In this document: positions 7,715 to 48,030 of the stretch, in pieces
How the letters are laid out: each line of letters starts with the position of its first letter
Position numbering within the stretch: position 1 is the first letter of the stretch
Origin: Flexistipes sp.
Lineage (GTDB): Bacteria; Chrysiogenota; Deferribacteres; Deferribacterales; Flexistipitaceae
Direction: 5' to 3'
Length of the DNA stretch: 64,000 bases
NCBI RefSeq assembly: GCF_036172515.1
Contig: NZ_JAXKVW010000003.1
Coordinates: forward strand, 45,001 to 109,000
The notes under the pieces: generated by a model
The model's input: the letters and a program-made list of their open reading frames with translations, nothing else
Databases searched by the model: none
Told to the model about the DNA's origin: nothing
Program-made: the position numbers and the translations under genes

Positions 7715-7840
7715 GTGAAATAGTGAAGTGGTGAGATAGTGAGGTGGAAAGATGTGTGCCGTCATCACCCAACTCCAAATATAAAGATAAGCTCCGGGAT
7801 AAAACTCAACTACTTTAACAACTTCAAATACCTTTAACTG
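7715..7840. repeat. Composite simple repeat, family A copy 1
   Basis: Four tandem octamers of the form GTGARRTR lie at 7715-7746. About 75 nt further on is the block TTCAAATACCTTTAACT (7823-7839), which recurs near 42.5 and 47.97 kb. See the findings for the family. Confidence 0.55.
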
Positions 7841-14186: not shown

Positions 14187-14275
14187 GTTAAGCGTTAAGT
14201 GCTAAGTGTTAAGATAAGGCTAAGGCAAAGGTAAAGGTAAAGGTAAAGGTGGGGAAGTAGTGAAGTAAAGTGATA
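14187..14275. repeat. Tandem heptamers and hexamers, family A copy 2
   Basis: Four heptamers of GTTAAGY type (14187-14214) run into six hexamers, TAAGGC twice then AAAGGT four times (14215-14250). A GTAGTGAAGTAAAGTGA tail follows that resembles the octamers at 7.7 kb. Copy number could vary between strains by slippage. Confidence 0.75.
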
Positions 14276-14280
14276 AGCAC

Positions 14281-14480
14281 AGTTGCATATTTATTCGTTA
14301 TGTCGTTTCATATGGTAGAGATTTCTCACTTCGTTCGAAAGAATGCCTGCGGCTATCACCAGTCTTTTAGACTGGTAAATATGTTTACATTCTATTTATC
14401 CGCACAAGGCGGATGTTAGACAACAATTTATGTCATTCCGAGTGGAGCAAAGTGGAATCGAGGAATCTCTATCTATATAT
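14281..14480 (-). repeat. Hairpin-rich interspersed repeat, family B copy (reverse orientation)
   Basis: Read on the minus strand this block has ATATAGATAGAGA, TGTCTAACATC, a hairpin ATCCGC/GCGGAT, ATAAATAGAATGTAAACATATTT, a perfect hairpin ACCAGTCT/AGACTGGT, GATAGCCGCAGGCAT and AATCTCTACCATATGAAACGA. The same blocks in the same order occur at 23600-23817. The middle part also occurs at 15898-15985. Confidence 0.75.
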
Positions 14481-14722
14481 TAACAATTTCTGCGTTTCTG
14501 CTTAGTAAAGATAGAGATAATTTTAGTTGTAGATCTGGATAGTTTTGCTTTCACATTCACACTTACGTTCACTAATCTTGAACGTTTTTATAGTTGTGCT
14601 TTAGGTTTTGTACAAAACTCTAAAATTTTATTTTTCCCTTTACAGTATGGGATTATTGAACAATTATAGTTTTTGCTTATCCTTATTTATTCCGTAATTA
14701 TCAGTTGAACAAGGACGGTTTG

Positions 14723-15877
14723 TTGAATACGAGCAAAACAGGAATTCAGGCGGTATTTTTTTCACTTTTTTATTTTTTGAACTTCGCCTCTTTGGGCGTT
14801 TTTCTCCCTTATCTGGCGCTGTTTTTTAAAGAGAACGGCTTCAGCGGTCTTCAGATTGGGATAGTTCTGGCTCTTGTTCCTTTGTGCAAATTTGTTTTTA
14901 CCTCAAAATGGACGAAGCTTTTTGGTGCATCTCCAATGCCTCATTTGTTTGCAGCTTTAAGTGTACTTTTGGCTAATATCGCTCTGTATTTTCTTATCCT
15001 TTTCCCGAGCTTTTTTACAGCTGCGGTTATTGTGTTTGTCTTTTCAACCCTGAGAGTAGGTTTATTACCGGCTGTTGATCACTGCAGTATGGAATTTTTC
15101 AAAAAAAGCGGAATCGAATATGGTAAAATGCGAATGTTCGGGTCTATCGGCTTCATTGCATCCACAGTTATTATGGGTAAAATTGTTGATATCTGGGGTG
15201 TGGATTCAATTGTTATCGCCGCCTCCGTGCTGGGTTGTGTTTCTGCAGTCCCATTGATTTTTCTTCAATTGAGTGACGGGGTTTGCAAAAACGACCGAAA
15301 AAAAGGCTCAGAAGCTTTTCCCCTTTTCTTTTATTTTATACTTGTTGCCGTAATATTTTATTTTGCATCGTTTAAATTTTTCGGAAGCTTTTTTAATATT
15401 AAAATAGATGAAGCCGGGTATTCGCAGTTCCACGCCGGAGCGATCTGGGGATTCGGGATATTATGTGAAGTATTTGTTATGTACTATGCCGGAAGTATTT
15501 TCAGAAAATATAAAGCTGTAAATGTTCTGATTTTATCTATGTTTCTTGGAGCCTTCAGGCTTTTTGTAATTGCCTTCAGTGCAAATCTTTTGATTCTTTA
15601 TACTGTAAATCTGCTTCACGGATTTGCTTTCGGAGCTTATCACCTTTCCGTCTTAAGGCTTATTCAGCAAAAGCTCCCTGGAAAAGTTCGTCTCAAAGCA
15701 CAAAGCCGGTATTCTGAAATGAGTTTCGGACTCGGGGCTATAATCGGTTCTGTATTAAGTGGTATCATATATGATATGGCCGGGGTTAACGCTATCTTTA
15801 CAATCGGAGGTCTTCTGGCTGTTTTTTCATCAATTATAGTTTTTATCGGCGGCAAAAAACTTGCAACAAATAAATAA
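14723..15877 (+). CDS. MFS transporter, MFS_1-like (HcaT/nucleoside permease-like)
   Basis: A permease of about 384 residues with 12 hydrophobic segments. The N-terminal FLNFASLGVFLPYLALFFKENGFSG pattern, split here between TM1 and the first loop, and the motif LRVGLLPAVDH resemble the LacY/HcaT-like branch that imports aromatic acids or sugars. The start is taken as TTG at 14723 because AAGGA lies 7 nt before it. A TTG at 14705 in the same frame has no ribosome-binding site. It is isolated between two repeat-filled spacers. The substrate is unknown. Confidence 0.82.
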   Translation: MNTSKTGIQAVFFSLFYFLNFASLGVFLPYLALFFKENGFSGLQIGIVLALVPLCKFVFTSKWTKLFGASPMPHLFAALSVLLANIALYFLILFPSFFTAAVIVFVFSTLRVGLLPAVDHCSMEFFKKSGIEYGKMRMFGSIGFIASTVIMGKIVDIWGVDSIVIAASVLGCVSAVPLIFLQLSDGVCKNDRKKGSEAFPLFFYFILVAVIFYFASFKFFGSFFNIKIDEAGYSQFHAGAIWGFGILCEVFVMYYAGSIFRKYKAVNVLILSMFLGAFRLFVIAFSANLLILYTVNLLHGFAFGAYHLSVLRLIQQKLPGKVRLKAQSRYSEMSFGLGAIIGSVLSGIIYDMAGVNAIFTIGGLLAVFSSIIVFIGGKKLATNK

Positions 15878-15879
15878 TT

Positions 15880-16146
15880 AAGTTTCGCACTTCTCTGTGT
15901 CTAGCATTCGCTTTTAGCGAATATATAGAATGTTAAACATATTTACCAGTCTAAAAGACTGGTGCTAGCCATAGGCATCCTTGAGAAACCCTGTGAAAAC
16001 AGGGTTGTGGCAAGCTCAAAATAAGAAAAGTATGGAGATTGCTTCGTCGTTTTCACTCCCTGCCCTGTTAAATGCCACAGGCAATCAGCGAAGCTGATAT
16101 TTAACAGGGTGAACAAAGACGAGAAAACAGTGTAAGTGCGAAACTT
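15880..16146. repeat. 267-nt element with 13-bp perfect terminal inverted repeats and internal hairpins
   Basis: AAGTTTCGCACTT at 15880-15892 is repeated in inverse at 16134-16146. Between them are hairpins ATTCGC/GCGAAT (15906-15922), ACCAGTCT/AGACTGGT (about 15948-15966), AACCCTGT/ACAGGGTT and CCCTGTTAAAT/ATTTAACAGGG. The part from 15898 to 15985 is a family B core, nearly identical to that near 14.4 kb. It fills the space between two convergent genes, starting 3 nt after one stop. It resembles a MITE or a multi-hairpin RNA element; no transposase is seen. Confidence 0.7.
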
Positions 16147-16151
16147 GAATA

Positions 16152-16919
16152 TTAAGATAAACATTTCATAGTGTATTTGTATCCTGCCTCAATAAGTTCT
16201 TTACCTCTGTAAAACTCGAAAAGACCAAATTCCCTGAGATCCGGTTTCAGTATTTTCCATGCCTCAGAATTTTTCAGCTGATATGATGTCAGGTGGTGTG
16301 ACATTATTGTGATTGACCTGTTAATTGTACTCATAACATTGGGTGATTCTTCAAAGTAAGGTACTTGAAGCGGTGAGTTCAAGTCCACTGCTATAATTTT
16401 TCTGTGCCTTTTATGAGAAAGAATATCCACGGGAACGGGGTTTGTTATTCCACCGTCTACAAAATACATACCTTTGATTTCTGCAGGAGTGAACAGTCCC
16501 GGTATGGATATGGAAGCTCTTACTCCTTCTATTACAGAACCTTTTTCGAATGTTACGCATTTGCCGCTTTCCAGACTTGATGCGCAAATGTATAGTGGAA
16601 TTACTGTGTCTTCAATTTTTTTGTTTTTTAAATTTTCAGCAAAAAGTTCCAGAAGCCTGTTCCCGCTGATGAGCCCTTTTACGGGCAGAAGGTTTACATC
16701 GTAATATCTGAGTACACGGCGTTTATCGAGATTTAAAACAAAATCTTCAAATTCATTTAAAATACCGAAAGCCTCATAAGCTGCTATTATAGCACCCGCA
16801 CTTGTCCCGGAAACAGCTTCAATTTTATAATCCAGCTCTTTGAGTGCTTTTATTATGCCTATATGTGCCCATCCTTTTGCCGAGCCGCTGCCCAGTGCAA
16901 GGGATACCTTTTTAACCAA
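16152..16919 (-). CDS. Patatin-like phospholipase (RssA/YchK type)
   Basis: About 255 residues of the bacterial patatin family, which has a Ser-Asp dyad acyl hydrolase. The oxyanion loop GSGSAKGWAHIG is followed by the nucleophile elbow GTSAG (Ser near 40) and DGGITNPVP, whose Asp completes the dyad. It has no signal peptide, so it is cytoplasmic or membrane-associated. The TTG at 16919 is preferred because AAGGTGG sits 5 nt upstream. A GTG at 16928 lies inside that Shine-Dalgarno sequence. The natural substrate is unknown. Confidence 0.87.
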   Translation of the reverse strand: MVKKVSLALGSGSAKGWAHIGIIKALKELDYKIEAVSGTSAGAIIAAYEAFGILNEFEDFVLNLDKRRVLRYYDVNLLPVKGLISGNRLLELFAENLKNKKIEDTVIPLYICASSLESGKCVTFEKGSVIEGVRASISIPGLFTPAEIKGMYFVDGGITNPVPVDILSHKRHRKIIAVDLNSPLQVPYFEESPNVMSTINRSITIMSHHLTSYQLKNSEAWKILKPDLREFGLFEFYRGKELIEAGYKYTMKCLS

Positions 16920-17046
16920 TTTTGCCACCTTATCTCTTTGACTTTTGAATAATTCCAGCTTCTCTTATACTTATAGCAAATAAAATTATCTTTTGTAAAC
17001 CGATCTGAATGACCTGTCACAATTTTGTATGCTGTTATATTTTTAT

Positions 17047-23567: not shown

Positions 23568-23599
23568 GTTTCACTAAGGAGATTAACAGAGATTATGAG

Positions 23600-23817
23600 C
23601 ATATAGATAGAGACCTCTCCGCTGAGCTCGAGGTGACAAAAAACTGTCTAACATCGATAGATAAATAGGATGTTACACATATCTTGCCCGGCGGCGGGGT
23701 GGTTTATTAGTCTAAACAACTGATAGCGGCCGCATACATTTTTTCAAACCGCTCGGGGGCGCAGAAAAATCTCTGCCATATGAAACGATACAATAAACAA
23801 ATATGCGTTTGCGTTTA
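23600..23817 (+). repeat. Hairpin-rich interspersed repeat, family B copy
   Basis: This block shares ATATAGATAGAGA, TGTCTAACATC, ATAAATAGRATGT, AGTCTAAA, CTGATAGC, AATCTCTGCCATATGAAACGA and AATATGC, in order, with the reverse-oriented copy at 14281-14480. The central stem ATTAGT/ACTGAT differs in sequence from the AGACTGG stem of the other copies but still pairs, with one G-U. It has gained GC-rich inserts near 23690 and 23755. It lies between two convergent genes. Confidence 0.7.
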
Positions 23818-23822
23818 GTTGG

Positions 23823-25352
23823 CTAAGATAATATAACACCTCCGTTTTTGATGGAGGTCATATAAATTGCCGGTTTGTCTTTGACCGGGCACTTGTACTG
23901 GCAGATTCCGCATCCGATACATTCCTCGGGATTAATTTTCGGTTGCTTTATTTCCCTTGAACGGCCCTTATAGTTTTTGCCTTTGACTCTGTCAAAGTAT
24001 ATTGCTTTGGGTGAGGTGGGACAGTGCTCTTCGCATACAATACAGTCCACTCCGTAGGCATAGGGAAGACATCTGTTTTCATCTATGAATGCAGTTGCTA
24101 TTACTGTTTTTTTCTTTTCTTCCACACTTAATTCTTCAATTGCCCCTGTAGGGCACATTTTGCCGCACAGATTGCAGTTGTAAACACAATAGCCGTAATC
24201 GGCATTTCCCACAGGAGTCCATAAACCTTCGATACCTGATTCAAAAAGAGAGGGGGCGAGAAAATTCTCCGGACATACTTTCATGCACGCTCCGCATCTT
24301 ATGCATGTTTTAAGAAATTTATTTTCCTGAACGCTTCCAGGCGGCCTTATCAGCTGTGGGGTTTTAGCAACTGCTTTTTTTCCTGTTTTTATTACAAAGA
24401 ATCCGGACAAAGCGATTCCCAGGGTTTTTGCAGTTGCACGTTTAGACAGATCAATTTCAGCTGGTTTTATATTTAATCCGTAATAAAGCGAATCTGAAGG
24501 ACAGGCGGCGAGGCAGTTAAATAAAAGCATACATTCACTCGATTTAAAATTGTTCTTTTTGAAAGGCAGAGCATCTGCATAACATTTGTCCGAACAGCTG
24601 CCGCATGAATTACAGTTTGCCTTGTGCTGCAGTTTTAAAGGTGAATATTTGCTGAGCAAACCAAGCATCCCTCCCAAAGGACAGAGGTATTTGCACCAAA
24701 AGCGATTCCTGTAAAAGTTCAGAGCCAATAAAATTATAAATATGGTTCCGAACAGGGGCGCCTGTTCATAATATATATTATCCCTTCCGAGTACATTATA
24801 GAAGAGAAAATCCTGCATGCTGCCTGACAGTATATTCATGTTGTAAATAATAAGCACAACCGGGAGAAAAAAAACAGCTAAGCATTTAACCAAAATACTC
24901 AGCGGGTCGAGATACCCTGAGACATTGATACGCATAATTGATAAAATAACAACGGCTGTAAAAATGTAGTATTTCAGATTTTGATACTTTGGATATTCCG
25001 TTTTTTCGTATTTGTCTTTCCTGATTTTATGAGCGATAAAACTGAAAAAATGATGTATTGTCCCGAATGGGCAAATCCACCCGCAGAAAAGCCTTCCGAA
25101 AATCACCGTGAGCATTATAACGACGGCTGAAAGAATAAAAACAGCCGGCAGTTTGTATGTGCTGAAAAAAGTTGTAAGTGCTACAAGCGGATCAATCGCG
25201 AAAATGTATTCAATTTTGCTTTTTAATTTCAGCTCAAGTGAGAAACCTGAATTGTCGATGATTGAATTAAAGAAAATGTAGAAAAACAGAGCCAAAAACA
25301 AAATCTGGGATATAAGCCTTAAGTATCTGCTATATTTTTTCATATAAAACAT
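23823..25352 (-). CDS. NapH-like membrane polyferredoxin fused to a NapG-like ferredoxin region
   Basis: A 509-residue membrane iron-sulphur protein. Residues 10-230 carry about five membrane spans and the two NosR/NapH signatures CGWICPFG (90-97) and CKYLCPLGG (220-228). Next comes a cysteine cluster region (CNSCGSCSDKC at 247-257, then 274-284), another hydrophobic stretch near 310-322, and a NapG-like part with CIRCGACMKVCP (350-361), CNLCGKMCP (393-401), CIVCEEHCP (437-445) and CIGCGICQYKCP (478-489). It probably moves electrons between the quinone pool and a periplasmic partner. It overlaps the DUF362 gene by up to 23 nt. The start could also be ATG at 25343. Confidence 0.85.
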   Translation of the reverse strand: MFYMKKYSRYLRLISQILFLALFFYIFFNSIIDNSGFSLELKLKSKIEYIFAIDPLVALTTFFSTYKLPAVFILSAVVIMLTVIFGRLFCGWICPFGTIHHFFSFIAHKIRKDKYEKTEYPKYQNLKYYIFTAVVILSIMRINVSGYLDPLSILVKCLAVFFLPVVLIIYNMNILSGSMQDFLFYNVLGRDNIYYEQAPLFGTIFIILLALNFYRNRFWCKYLCPLGGMLGLLSKYSPLKLQHKANCNSCGSCSDKCYADALPFKKNNFKSSECMLLFNCLAACPSDSLYYGLNIKPAEIDLSKRATAKTLGIALSGFFVIKTGKKAVAKTPQLIRPPGSVQENKFLKTCIRCGACMKVCPENFLAPSLFESGIEGLWTPVGNADYGYCVYNCNLCGKMCPTGAIEELSVEEKKKTVIATAFIDENRCLPYAYGVDCIVCEEHCPTSPKAIYFDRVKGKNYKGRSREIKQPKINPEECIGCGICQYKCPVKDKPAIYMTSIKNGGVILS

Positions 25353-31318: not shown

Positions 31319-32560
31319 GTGAATTTATCCGAACTTAAGAAAAAGTCTATAGAAGAGCTTGTTAATATTGCTGAAGAACAAGAGATTGTAGATGCTCCTA
31401 ACCTTTTGAAACAGGAACTTATATTTGAGATTCTAAAGTCCATAAGTGAAAAGAACGGCCAGATATACGGCCGCGGTGTCCTTGAGATTTTACCGGACGG
31501 TTTCGGCTTTTTACGCTCCACGGATTACAACTATCTCCCCGGGCCGGATGACCTTTATGTCTCTCCTGCACAAATCAGGCGTTTTGGACTTCGCAACGGG
31601 GATACTATAGCCGGAGAAATCAGGCCGCCAAAAGATAATGAAAAATATTTTGCGCTGCTTAAAATTACAACGGTTAACGATGGAAAACCGAGACGACAGA
31701 GAAACCTTTTTGAAAATCTCACCCCTCTTTTCCCGGAAGAGAGACTCAATCTTGAAGCTTATCCGACTTCCTATGATACGAGAATTATGAATATGCTTTC
31801 ACCTGTGGGAAAAGGACAGAGAGGCCTACTGGTGGCTCCGCCCAAAACCGGGAAAACAATGCTTTTAAAATCTATTGCCAACAGTATTACGGCGAATCAT
31901 CCTGAAGTTTATATGATTATTCTGCTTATTGATGAAAGACCTGAAGAGGTAACAGATATGCAGCGTTCGGTTGATGCCGAGGTTATCAGTTCCACATTTG
32001 ACGAGCCCGGCTACAGACATGTTCAGGTTTCTGAGATGGTTATGAATAAAGCCAAAAGACTGGTTGAGCAGGGCAGAGACGTTTGTATCCTTCTGGACAG
32101 TATTACAAGACTTGCCAGAGCTTATAACTCTATTGAGCCGCCCAGTGGTAAAGTTTTGTCGGGTGGTGTGGATGCCAATGCACTGCATAAACCCAAAAGG
32201 TTTTTTGGTGCTGCCAGGAATATCGAAGAAGGCGGCAGCCTGACGGTCATTGCTACAGCTCTTGTGGATACAGGCTCCCGTATGGATGAAGTTATCTTTG
32301 AAGAATTTAAAGGTACGGGTAATATGGAAGTTCATCTGGATAGAAGGCTAGTTGAAAAACGTATTTTCCCAGCACTCGATATTAACAGATCCGGTACAAG
32401 GCGTGAAGAGCTCCTTCTCGGAAAAGATGAGATAAACAAGGTCTGGATACTCCGGAGGTTCTTAAGCAATATGAATGCTGTGGATGCAATGGAATTTCTG
32501 CTTGATAAGATTAAAGGCACCAAGACAAACAAAGAATTTCTCGATTCCATGAATAAATAA
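31319..32560 (+). CDS. rho: Transcription termination factor Rho
   Basis: A 413-residue hexameric RNA-dependent ATPase that ends transcription. The N-terminal Rho-N helix is at about 1-45. The cold-shock-like primary RNA-binding domain (PDGFGFLRS to about residue 125) follows. The Walker A motif APPKTGKT is at 173-180, Walker B is near [14 protein letters not shown], and [21 protein letters not shown] comes after. The GTG start follows AGAGG by 7 nt. A GC-rich hairpin lies downstream. The gene is transcribed alone. Confidence 0.97.
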
Positions 32561-32566
32561 TATTAC

Positions 32567-32626
32567 AAGTTTCGCACTTAGTTCCGTCATTACGCCCGCT
32601 CACTTAACGCCTTAAGTGGGCGGGCG
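32567..32626 (+). terminator. Strong hairpin after rho, preceded by an AAGTTTCGCACTT motif
   Basis: CGCCCGC-T-CACTTAA (32593-32607) pairs with TTAAGTG-G-GCGGGCG (32612-32626), a 15-bp stem with one T-G pair and loop CGCC. T-rich sequence starts about 5 nt later, so it may terminate rho. The 13-mer AAGTTTCGCACTT at 32567-32579 is identical to the inverted ends of the 15880-16146 element. Confidence 0.55.
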
Positions 32627-32754
32627 GAAATTTTGGTATATTTTTCAGTGGGATTTTTTATTTTAAACGGAAAAATTTAGTCACATTTGTTTACTCTTGC
32701 CTCTTATTCTAATAAAATAATCTGAAACAATATCTTTTTGGCAGTGAGGATTCT

Positions 32755-33399
32755 GTGCCCAATAAGTTTAAGTTTTACCGCTATTTTGCCCTGCTACTTA
32801 TCTGTTTTATATTAGTAATAGTCATTCTGTCAAAAAGCGGCTTAATAGAACTAAATATTTTTAAACATGATTTATATAAACACCTTCTGGTCATTGTTTC
32901 TGTTTTTGCTCTGCCTCTTCTTGGATTTCCTTTTTCAGCACTTCTTGTGGCTATTGGGATTGAATTTGATTATATTATCGGACTCGTGATTTTGGTAGCT
33001 GTAATTCCCCTTCACCTTGCATTTTCTTTTTGGATTGTTAACAGGTTTTTCCGGGAAAAAATAAAACATTCACCATTGGCAAGCAGATTCAGAATCTTTG
33101 ATATATCCTCTGAGAAGCACCTTGAATACACTTTTATATTTATGATTCTTCCGGTGGTGCCTTATGCAGTGAAAAACTATCTGCTTCCCGCTTCAGGTAT
33201 TCCATTCAGATATTATTTTATTATAGGCTGGATAATTCAATCAGTTTTAGGGGCACCGTTTGTTATTTTAGGTGAGGCTGCCTCAAGCCTTGATTACCGG
33301 ATGCTTTTTGCACTTTTTATATTGTTTCCCATTTTTTATTTTGTTATGAGGAAGCTGAAAGAAAGATATTATAAGCTTATAACAAAGAAAGAAAATTAA
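32755..33399 (+). CDS. TVP38/TMEM64-like (VTT domain) membrane protein
   Basis: A 214-residue protein with about five to six hydrophobic spans. The central segment LPLLGFPFSALLVAIGIEFD and PVVPYAVKNYLLPASGIPFRYYFII match the VTT (SNARE-associated/DedA-like) pattern of re-entrant loops. Relatives act in lipid scrambling or envelope maintenance. The GTG start follows GAGG by 5 nt. The glycosidase-like gene begins 20 nt after its stop, so they may be cotranscribed. The function here is unknown. Confidence 0.75.
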   Translation: MPNKFKFYRYFALLLICFILVIVILSKSGLIELNIFKHDLYKHLLVIVSVFALPLLGFPFSALLVAIGIEFDYIIGLVILVAVIPLHLAFSFWIVNRFFREKIKHSPLASRFRIFDISSEKHLEYTFIFMILPVVPYAVKNYLLPASGIPFRYYFIIGWIIQSVLGAPFVILGEAASSLDYRMLFALFILFPIFYFVMRKLKERYYKLITKKEN

Positions 33400-42404: not shown

Positions 42405-42600
42405 TGAGGTATTGAGAAGTATAGGTATAGGCAGAGGCAAAGGCAAAGGCAAAGGTAAAGGCTGAATTTCCACACAATCAACTTATTCAACCATTTCAAC
42501 CACCTCAAATACTTTTAACTATCTTTCCTTCAGCTGTCACGCATTACGTATTACGCGTTACGGCTTTTAAATATGTAAATTTTAGGAGGTTGCCAACAAA
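42405..42600. repeat. Composite simple repeat, family A copy 3
   Basis: Seven hexamers of AGGYAA type run at 42423-42464. CACCTCAAATACTTTTAACTA (in part 42501-42520) follows. Next comes an ACGCATTACGTATTACGCGTTACG run, and then GGTTGCCAACAAATAAGTTG at the right end. The ordered blocks recur at 47825-48030. Confidence 0.7.
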
Positions 42601-47824: not shown

Positions 47825-48030
47825 CTAAATGGTGAGGGAGTGAGATTTGGAAATAGTGAGATTAGGGAGATAGAGAAGTAGAGGCAAAGGTTAAGGTTGA
47901 GATGGTTGAGGAAGTTTATAAAGCTTTGTACTCAGATGGACTTCAAAATACCCCAATTACCTCAAATACCTTTAACTACATTTTTACGCATCACTGCTTT
48001 TTAAATGAGAAAATATTGTGAGCCTACCAA
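47825..48030. repeat. Composite simple repeat, family A copy 4
   Basis: GTGAG-type octamers (47828-47880) lead into degenerate AGGYAA hexamers (47882-47905), then ACCTCAAATACCTTTAACTA (47959-47978), TTTTTACGCATCACTGCTTTTTAAAT and GAGCCTACCAACAAA. The block order equals that at 42405-42600. Confidence 0.65.

Follow-up and report, generated by a model that had tools for sequence, protein, structure and literature searches.

What is the 267-nucleotide stretch, closed on both sides by the same 13-mer in inverse orientation, that separates two convergent genes in a Flexistipes genome? An earlier note on this DNA had offered two readings, a miniature mobile element and a modular terminator cassette. 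The stretch belongs to the window, the whole 64,000-nucleotide stretch of DNA that was analysed, which is part of a 31-contig draft genome of 2,472,319 bases (hereafter the home genome). The 13-mers proved to be perfect and inverted as described, with exact copies of AAGTTTCGCACTT at 15880-15892 on the plus strand and at 16134-16146 on the minus strand. The position between two stop codons was likewise accurate: the stretch starts 3 nt past the TAA of a gene for an MFS_1-like transporter (14705-15877) and ends 5 nt short of the stop codon of a minus-strand gene for a patatin-like phospholipase (16152-16928), whose lowest coordinate is 16152. No open reading frame of at least 100 aa was found inside 15880-16146, and no Rfam match anywhere in the window. 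The element strand has a predicted folding energy of -103 kcal/mol (z = -8.4 against shuffles). A further exact copy of the 13-mer, also pointed out earlier, was confirmed at 32567-32579 on the plus strand. The element, its ends and the remnant around the third 13-mer are as follows.

15877-16149, plus strand: the complete miniature transposon (MITE) with its outermost 3 nucleotides at either end; the boundary is taken from the target-site duplications and empty sites of other copies
15880-15892, plus strand: left terminal inverted repeat AAGTTTCGCACTT (family consensus YTCAAGTTTCGCACTT)
16134-16146, minus strand: right terminal inverted repeat, intact, with the outer GAA at 16147-16149
32564-32624, plus strand: relic of a second copy after rho, comprising the left end and the slot-1 hairpin

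Copies, boundaries and empty sites of the family

Within the window alone, AAGTTTCGCACTT at up to 2 mismatches gave 4 matches against 2.3 expected, which is not unusual. Genome-wide (2.47 Mb), there are 81 exact matches to AAGTTTCGCACTT and none to its reversed control. The 13-mer is thus not rare in the home genome, and pairing of ends with at most 4 mismatches in total yielded 48 elements with inverted ends, 128-485 nt long and falling mainly into size classes of about 138, 189, 216, and 267 nt. A blastn search of the whole element against the home genome returned 55 matches, several of them full length at about 94% identity. The exact 15-mer TCAAGTTTCGCACTT is present 72 times in the home genome, 44 times in F. 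sinusarabici, and 3 times in a third Flexistipes genome, and was absent from the other genomes of the same search. A search of 60 genomes matched the element to the three Flexistipes genomes and otherwise gave a single hit of about 34 nt, in a different genus; a pattern scan of GTDB gave one Deferribacteraceae MAG and a single match in one alphaproteobacterial MAG, which is within chance expectation. The literature on the module sequences or on Flexistipes repeats yielded nothing relevant. Having terminal inverted repeats but no transposase gene, and with many copies dispersed over the genome and a near-constant target-duplication length of 6-7 bp, the element belongs to a MITE family that is confined to the genus Flexistipes and numbers about 50 copies in the home genome.

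The true terminal repeat is 16 bp long (YTCAAGTTTCGCACTT), and the mobile unit reaches 3 nt past each 13-mer. At this boundary the elements are flanked by AT-rich target-site duplications, mostly of 6-7 bp and once of 8 bp; 16 perfect 6-mers were counted where 0.7 would be expected, and 13 perfect 7-mers where 0.1 would be expected. The duplication signal is clearest 3 nt outside the 13-mers and weaker at other boundaries. Orthologous sites were sought in about half of the F. sinusarabici genome (1.2 Mb read base by base). Six precise absences were recovered in F. sinusarabici MAS10, in which the flanks overlap by 7 bp (five sites) or 6 bp (one site), meaning that one copy of the target is present there. 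About a dozen further sites are occupied in both genomes, and none of the 48 elements lies within an open reading frame of at least 100 aa. Paired ends, target duplications, and empty sites bear out the reading as a miniature mobile element: the family is a non-autonomous DNA transposon that inserts into AT-rich intergenic DNA.

The copy in the window is not the cleanest example of this family. Its left outer three nucleotides have decayed to ATT from YTC, and no target-site duplication was found around it. The orthologous site in F. sinusarabici is without the element and holds 83 bp of unrelated DNA instead, so that it is not a clean empty site. The window copy is thus a recombinant or decayed one, whose target duplication may have been lost or may never have been present, and it is the other copies that show mobility. 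What remains at the third 13-mer, at 32567, is the left portion of an element that F. sinusarabici has in full at the orthologous site after rho; in the window its right part (about 170 nt) is gone, as seen from the alignment of window 32000-32624 and 32627-33200 with F. sinusarabici 2100992-2101616 and 2101788-2102360.

Larger relatives were also encountered. In F. sinusarabici, the same ends also bound a 1.26-kb element (C1:1346345-1347606), which carries a gene for a ParE/RelE-type toxin (PF05016, 39 bits) and, upstream of it, a small gene with weak RelB/ParD similarity only; the two are flanked by two direct copies of another repeat. Its site in the home genome is not a clean empty site. 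The 485-bp element of the home genome (C1:51900-52384) has a nested insertion in its hairpin module A (see below), and the ends of this insertion match those of an F. sinusarabici IS (TTGGCACCCTCCCATTTT). Other repeats of the window include a 32-nt repeat (AACTACTTTAACAACTTCAAATACCTTTAACT and variants) at 7808-7839, 42489-42520, and 47946-47977, and AAGGYAAAGG-like units in short intergenic tandem runs at 14216-14249 and 42428-42461.

Hairpin modules and their exchange

Of the 48 elements, 38 could be parsed into a frame, made of a left arm, a spacer, and a right arm, with three slots. Module A (79 nt) is found in slot 0, which may also be empty; slot 1 has a hairpin tip of one of three types; and slot 2 is filled either by TCG or by the 54-nt module B, whose core is a palindrome of 47 nt. 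The parts of the window copy, and a second insertion in the window that has a module in common with it, are listed below.

15893-15901, plus strand: left frame arm CTCTGTGTC, lineage Lb
15902-15980, plus strand: module A, a 79-nt hairpin, occupying slot 0; other repeat families have it too, for example at about 14334-14422 of the window
15987-16008, plus strand: hairpin tip in slot 1, AACCCTGTG..CAGGGTTGT type (elsewhere in the family, CGAGCACTTAA.. or CGCCCACTTAA.. types)
16015-16034, plus strand: spacer of type Sa (CTCAAAATAAGAAAAGTATG); the same sequence is present in the home-genome copy at contig C3:155009
16060-16113, plus strand: hairpin module B in slot 2, replacing the TCG of the short class
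16063-16109, plus strand: core palindrome of module B, CCCTGTTAAAT..ATTTAACAGGG
16114-16133, plus strand: right frame arm, lineage Ra
14271-14503, plus strand: 233-bp insertion with different ends and module A in common, flanked by the 7-bp duplication AGTAAAG at 14264-14270 and 14504-14510

The 14271-14503 insertion has a precise empty site in F. sinusarabici. Mosaic hairpins were also noticed at about 23572-23825 of the window, with segments inverted relative to 14274-14509; the F. sinusarabici alignment ends at 23571.

The frames fall into three lineages (a, b, and c), within which left arm, spacer, and right arm mostly match. Arm Lb is elsewhere mostly paired with spacer Sb and right arm Rb; in the window copy this b-type left arm is joined to the a-type spacer and right arm (Sa and Ra), which makes the copy chimeric. 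Modules are distributed over the parsed elements in all four combinations, with 14 elements having neither module, 11 having B without A, 4 having A without B, and 9 having both. Module B is present in all three frame lineages and module A in two. Module B is 99.3% identical within frame lineages and 99.4% between them, and module A 96.2% within and 96.7% between. The corresponding values for the frame are 85.7% and 72.4%; because the lineages were defined from the left arm, the frame identities are partly circular, which does not apply to those of the modules.

Some sites occupied in both species differ in their modules. At C2_60363, module B is absent in the home genome and present in F. sinusarabici, the remainder being nearly identical; at C1_266082, it is present in the home genome and missing in F. 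sinusarabici; at C5_92024 and C13_71119, the slot-1 tips differ between the two species. Another hairpin also has module B at its tip (GTCATCCCTCG-B-CGAGCGAAGCCGAGGGATCTC), and elsewhere B is solitary; one copy, from the finished F. sinusarabici genome, has the left part of one B context and the right part of the other. The home genome being a draft, a module difference here and there could stem from misassembly; the same mosaicism is seen in the finished F. sinusarabici genome. The earlier description of the element as modular is therefore sound, in that hairpin modules sit in fixed slots and are exchanged: the three frame lineages carry them in various combinations, and a single insertion site can have different modules in the two species.

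Near-identical modules across divergent frames, together with differing tips at shared sites, indicate exchange without movement of the element. The simplest reading is that gene conversion, or template switching during replication, swaps modules within elements that stay where they are and are not re-inserted, the exchange partners presumably being hairpins with stem sequence in common. A bolder version, which we regard as unlikely though worth stating, is that the hairpin tips themselves, module B for instance, are mobile and form one exchangeable pool across otherwise unrelated MITE families; such short palindromes would then be inserted at the tips of other hairpins, or swapped there, either through recurrent template switching or through a REP-associated tyrosine transposase (RAYT) that works on hairpins in single-stranded DNA. 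It is improbable that no exchange took place at all, with the size classes representing old subfamilies and the species differences reflecting independent deletions of hairpins by slippage. Hairpins do favour deletion, and the relic after rho is a deletion product, as several solo ends may also be; but deletion does not put different sequences in place of a slot-1 tip at one and the same site, as at C5_92024 and C13_71119, nor does it agree with the near-identity of module B over frames that are 72% identical, or with the occurrence of B in an unrelated hairpin and in a chimera of both contexts.

Candidate source of the transposase

The ISPepr1 subgroup of the IS4 family is described as having ends of the form YT-AA-YTT---A, 7-8 bp direct repeats, and a preference for AT-rich targets (PMC2266710). 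With the boundary fixed beforehand by the target duplications, 66 of the 96 ends fitted YT-AA-YTT---A exactly, and none did at shifted boundaries. The targets are AT-rich as well. The duplications, at mostly 6-7 bp and once 8 bp, differ slightly from the published length, so the match to ISPepr1 is good but incomplete. The fit of the ends suggests that the element was probably mobilised in trans by a transposase of the ISPepr1 subgroup.

None of the three Flexistipes genomes yielded an autonomous element with these ends, nor a cognate gene for the DDE transposase with YREK motif that marks the subgroup; in F. sinusarabici, about half of the genome was read base by base for such a partner and the rest was covered by pattern and family. 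Among inward-facing, near-matching end pairs 0.7-3.5 kb apart, only the 1.26-kb toxin-antitoxin-like element stood out. The assignment to the ISPepr1 type is therefore an inference from the ends, the duplication length, and the target preference, and the cognate transposase may since have been lost from the sampled Flexistipes genomes or be present in an unrecognised form. The DDE_Tnp_1 genes of the three genomes were considered as partners and set aside, the IS families examined having other ends; this applies to the main IS families in the read half of F. sinusarabici, whose duplications, where read, are mostly 4-5 or about 9 bp. DDE_Tnp_1 matches number 115 in F. sinusarabici and one each in the home genome and the third Flexistipes genome. 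IS load thus differs strikingly within the genus, F. sinusarabici standing far above the other two genomes.

We consider it very likely that the observations are jointly explained by a Flexistipes MITE that was moved in trans by an ISPepr1-type transposase and whose modules were exchanged in place. That the element is instead a REP/BIME/REPIN-type repeat moved by a RAYT, and not by a DDE transposase, is quite improbable. RAYT-like Y1 transposases are encoded in the home genome and in F. sinusarabici (63 bits against NCBIfam REP_Tyr_transpos, the cut-off being 80), and module B is a REP-like palindrome that occurs in several contexts. However, target duplications of 6-7 bp and precise empty sites are typical of DDE transposition, and HUH (Y1) elements make no target duplications; nor was any element or module found beside RAYT genes at the loci examined. 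A RAYT could have acted on module B alone. The RAYT-like genes lie at four loci, encode 297-308 aa, and have an upstream stretch, GGGGACAGGTAAAT, in common; two of the four loci have a longer similar segment in common.

Least probable of all is a modular cassette, retained at the 3' ends of genes for its role in intrinsic termination or RNA processing, in which the repeats merely form the outer stem: the window copy does lie between two convergent stop codons, its predicted folding is very strong, module A has one terminator-like hairpin on the minus strand, and the relic comes after rho, but target duplications and empty sites mark a mobile insertion, the outer hairpin is not followed by a T-run, presence and absence vary at orthologous gene ends, and among the 44 copies with both neighbours identified only 7 lie between convergent genes, with 8 between divergent and 29 between co-directional ones. 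The search of the element for a G+C-rich hairpin followed by a T-run found none on the plus strand and, on the minus strand, the one match in module A. The terminator suggestion of the earlier note is thus not supported; that the window copy has two convergent neighbours is incidental, and effects of the MITE on neighbouring transcripts, if there are any, would be a side effect.

Relation to other repeats and significance

At the level of general features, the family resembles other bacterial MITEs such as the Correia elements and MITEAba12 in being short, gene-free, and intergenic, with inverted repeats, target duplication, and dozens of copies; it is unlike them in that its hairpins are exchangeable fixed-slot modules that are also found in other repeat families. 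With REP, BIME, and REPIN sequences it has hairpin arrays and a mosaic make-up in common, and module B alone is REP-like; unlike these, whole Flexistipes elements have terminal repeats and target duplications, and no link to a RAYT gene was found. Insertion sequences of the ISPepr1 subgroup are alike in the form of their ends, in AT-rich targets, and in similar duplication length, and differ in that the duplications of the Flexistipes element are mostly of 6-7 and not 7-8 bp, that it has no transposase, and that no cognate IS was found in the three genomes. Tn3 makes a 5 bp duplication. TIMEs are Tn3-derived miniature elements that are reported to build mosaic transposons (PMC4133298). TIMEs are comparable in having miniature ends able to carry other DNA, as in the 1.26-kb F. 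sinusarabici element; the Flexistipes ends and duplication length differ from theirs, and mosaicism here lies within the hairpins.

Mosaics of palindromic repeats are common in bacteria, though how such repeats turn mosaic is rarely visible. At shared insertion sites of this family, the same target duplication and outer arms can surround different tips, so that exchange can be told apart from transposition and quantified. One F. sinusarabici derivative of the family carries a toxin-antitoxin-like pair of genes, and the family is a ready marker for comparing strains in the little-studied phylum Deferribacterota.
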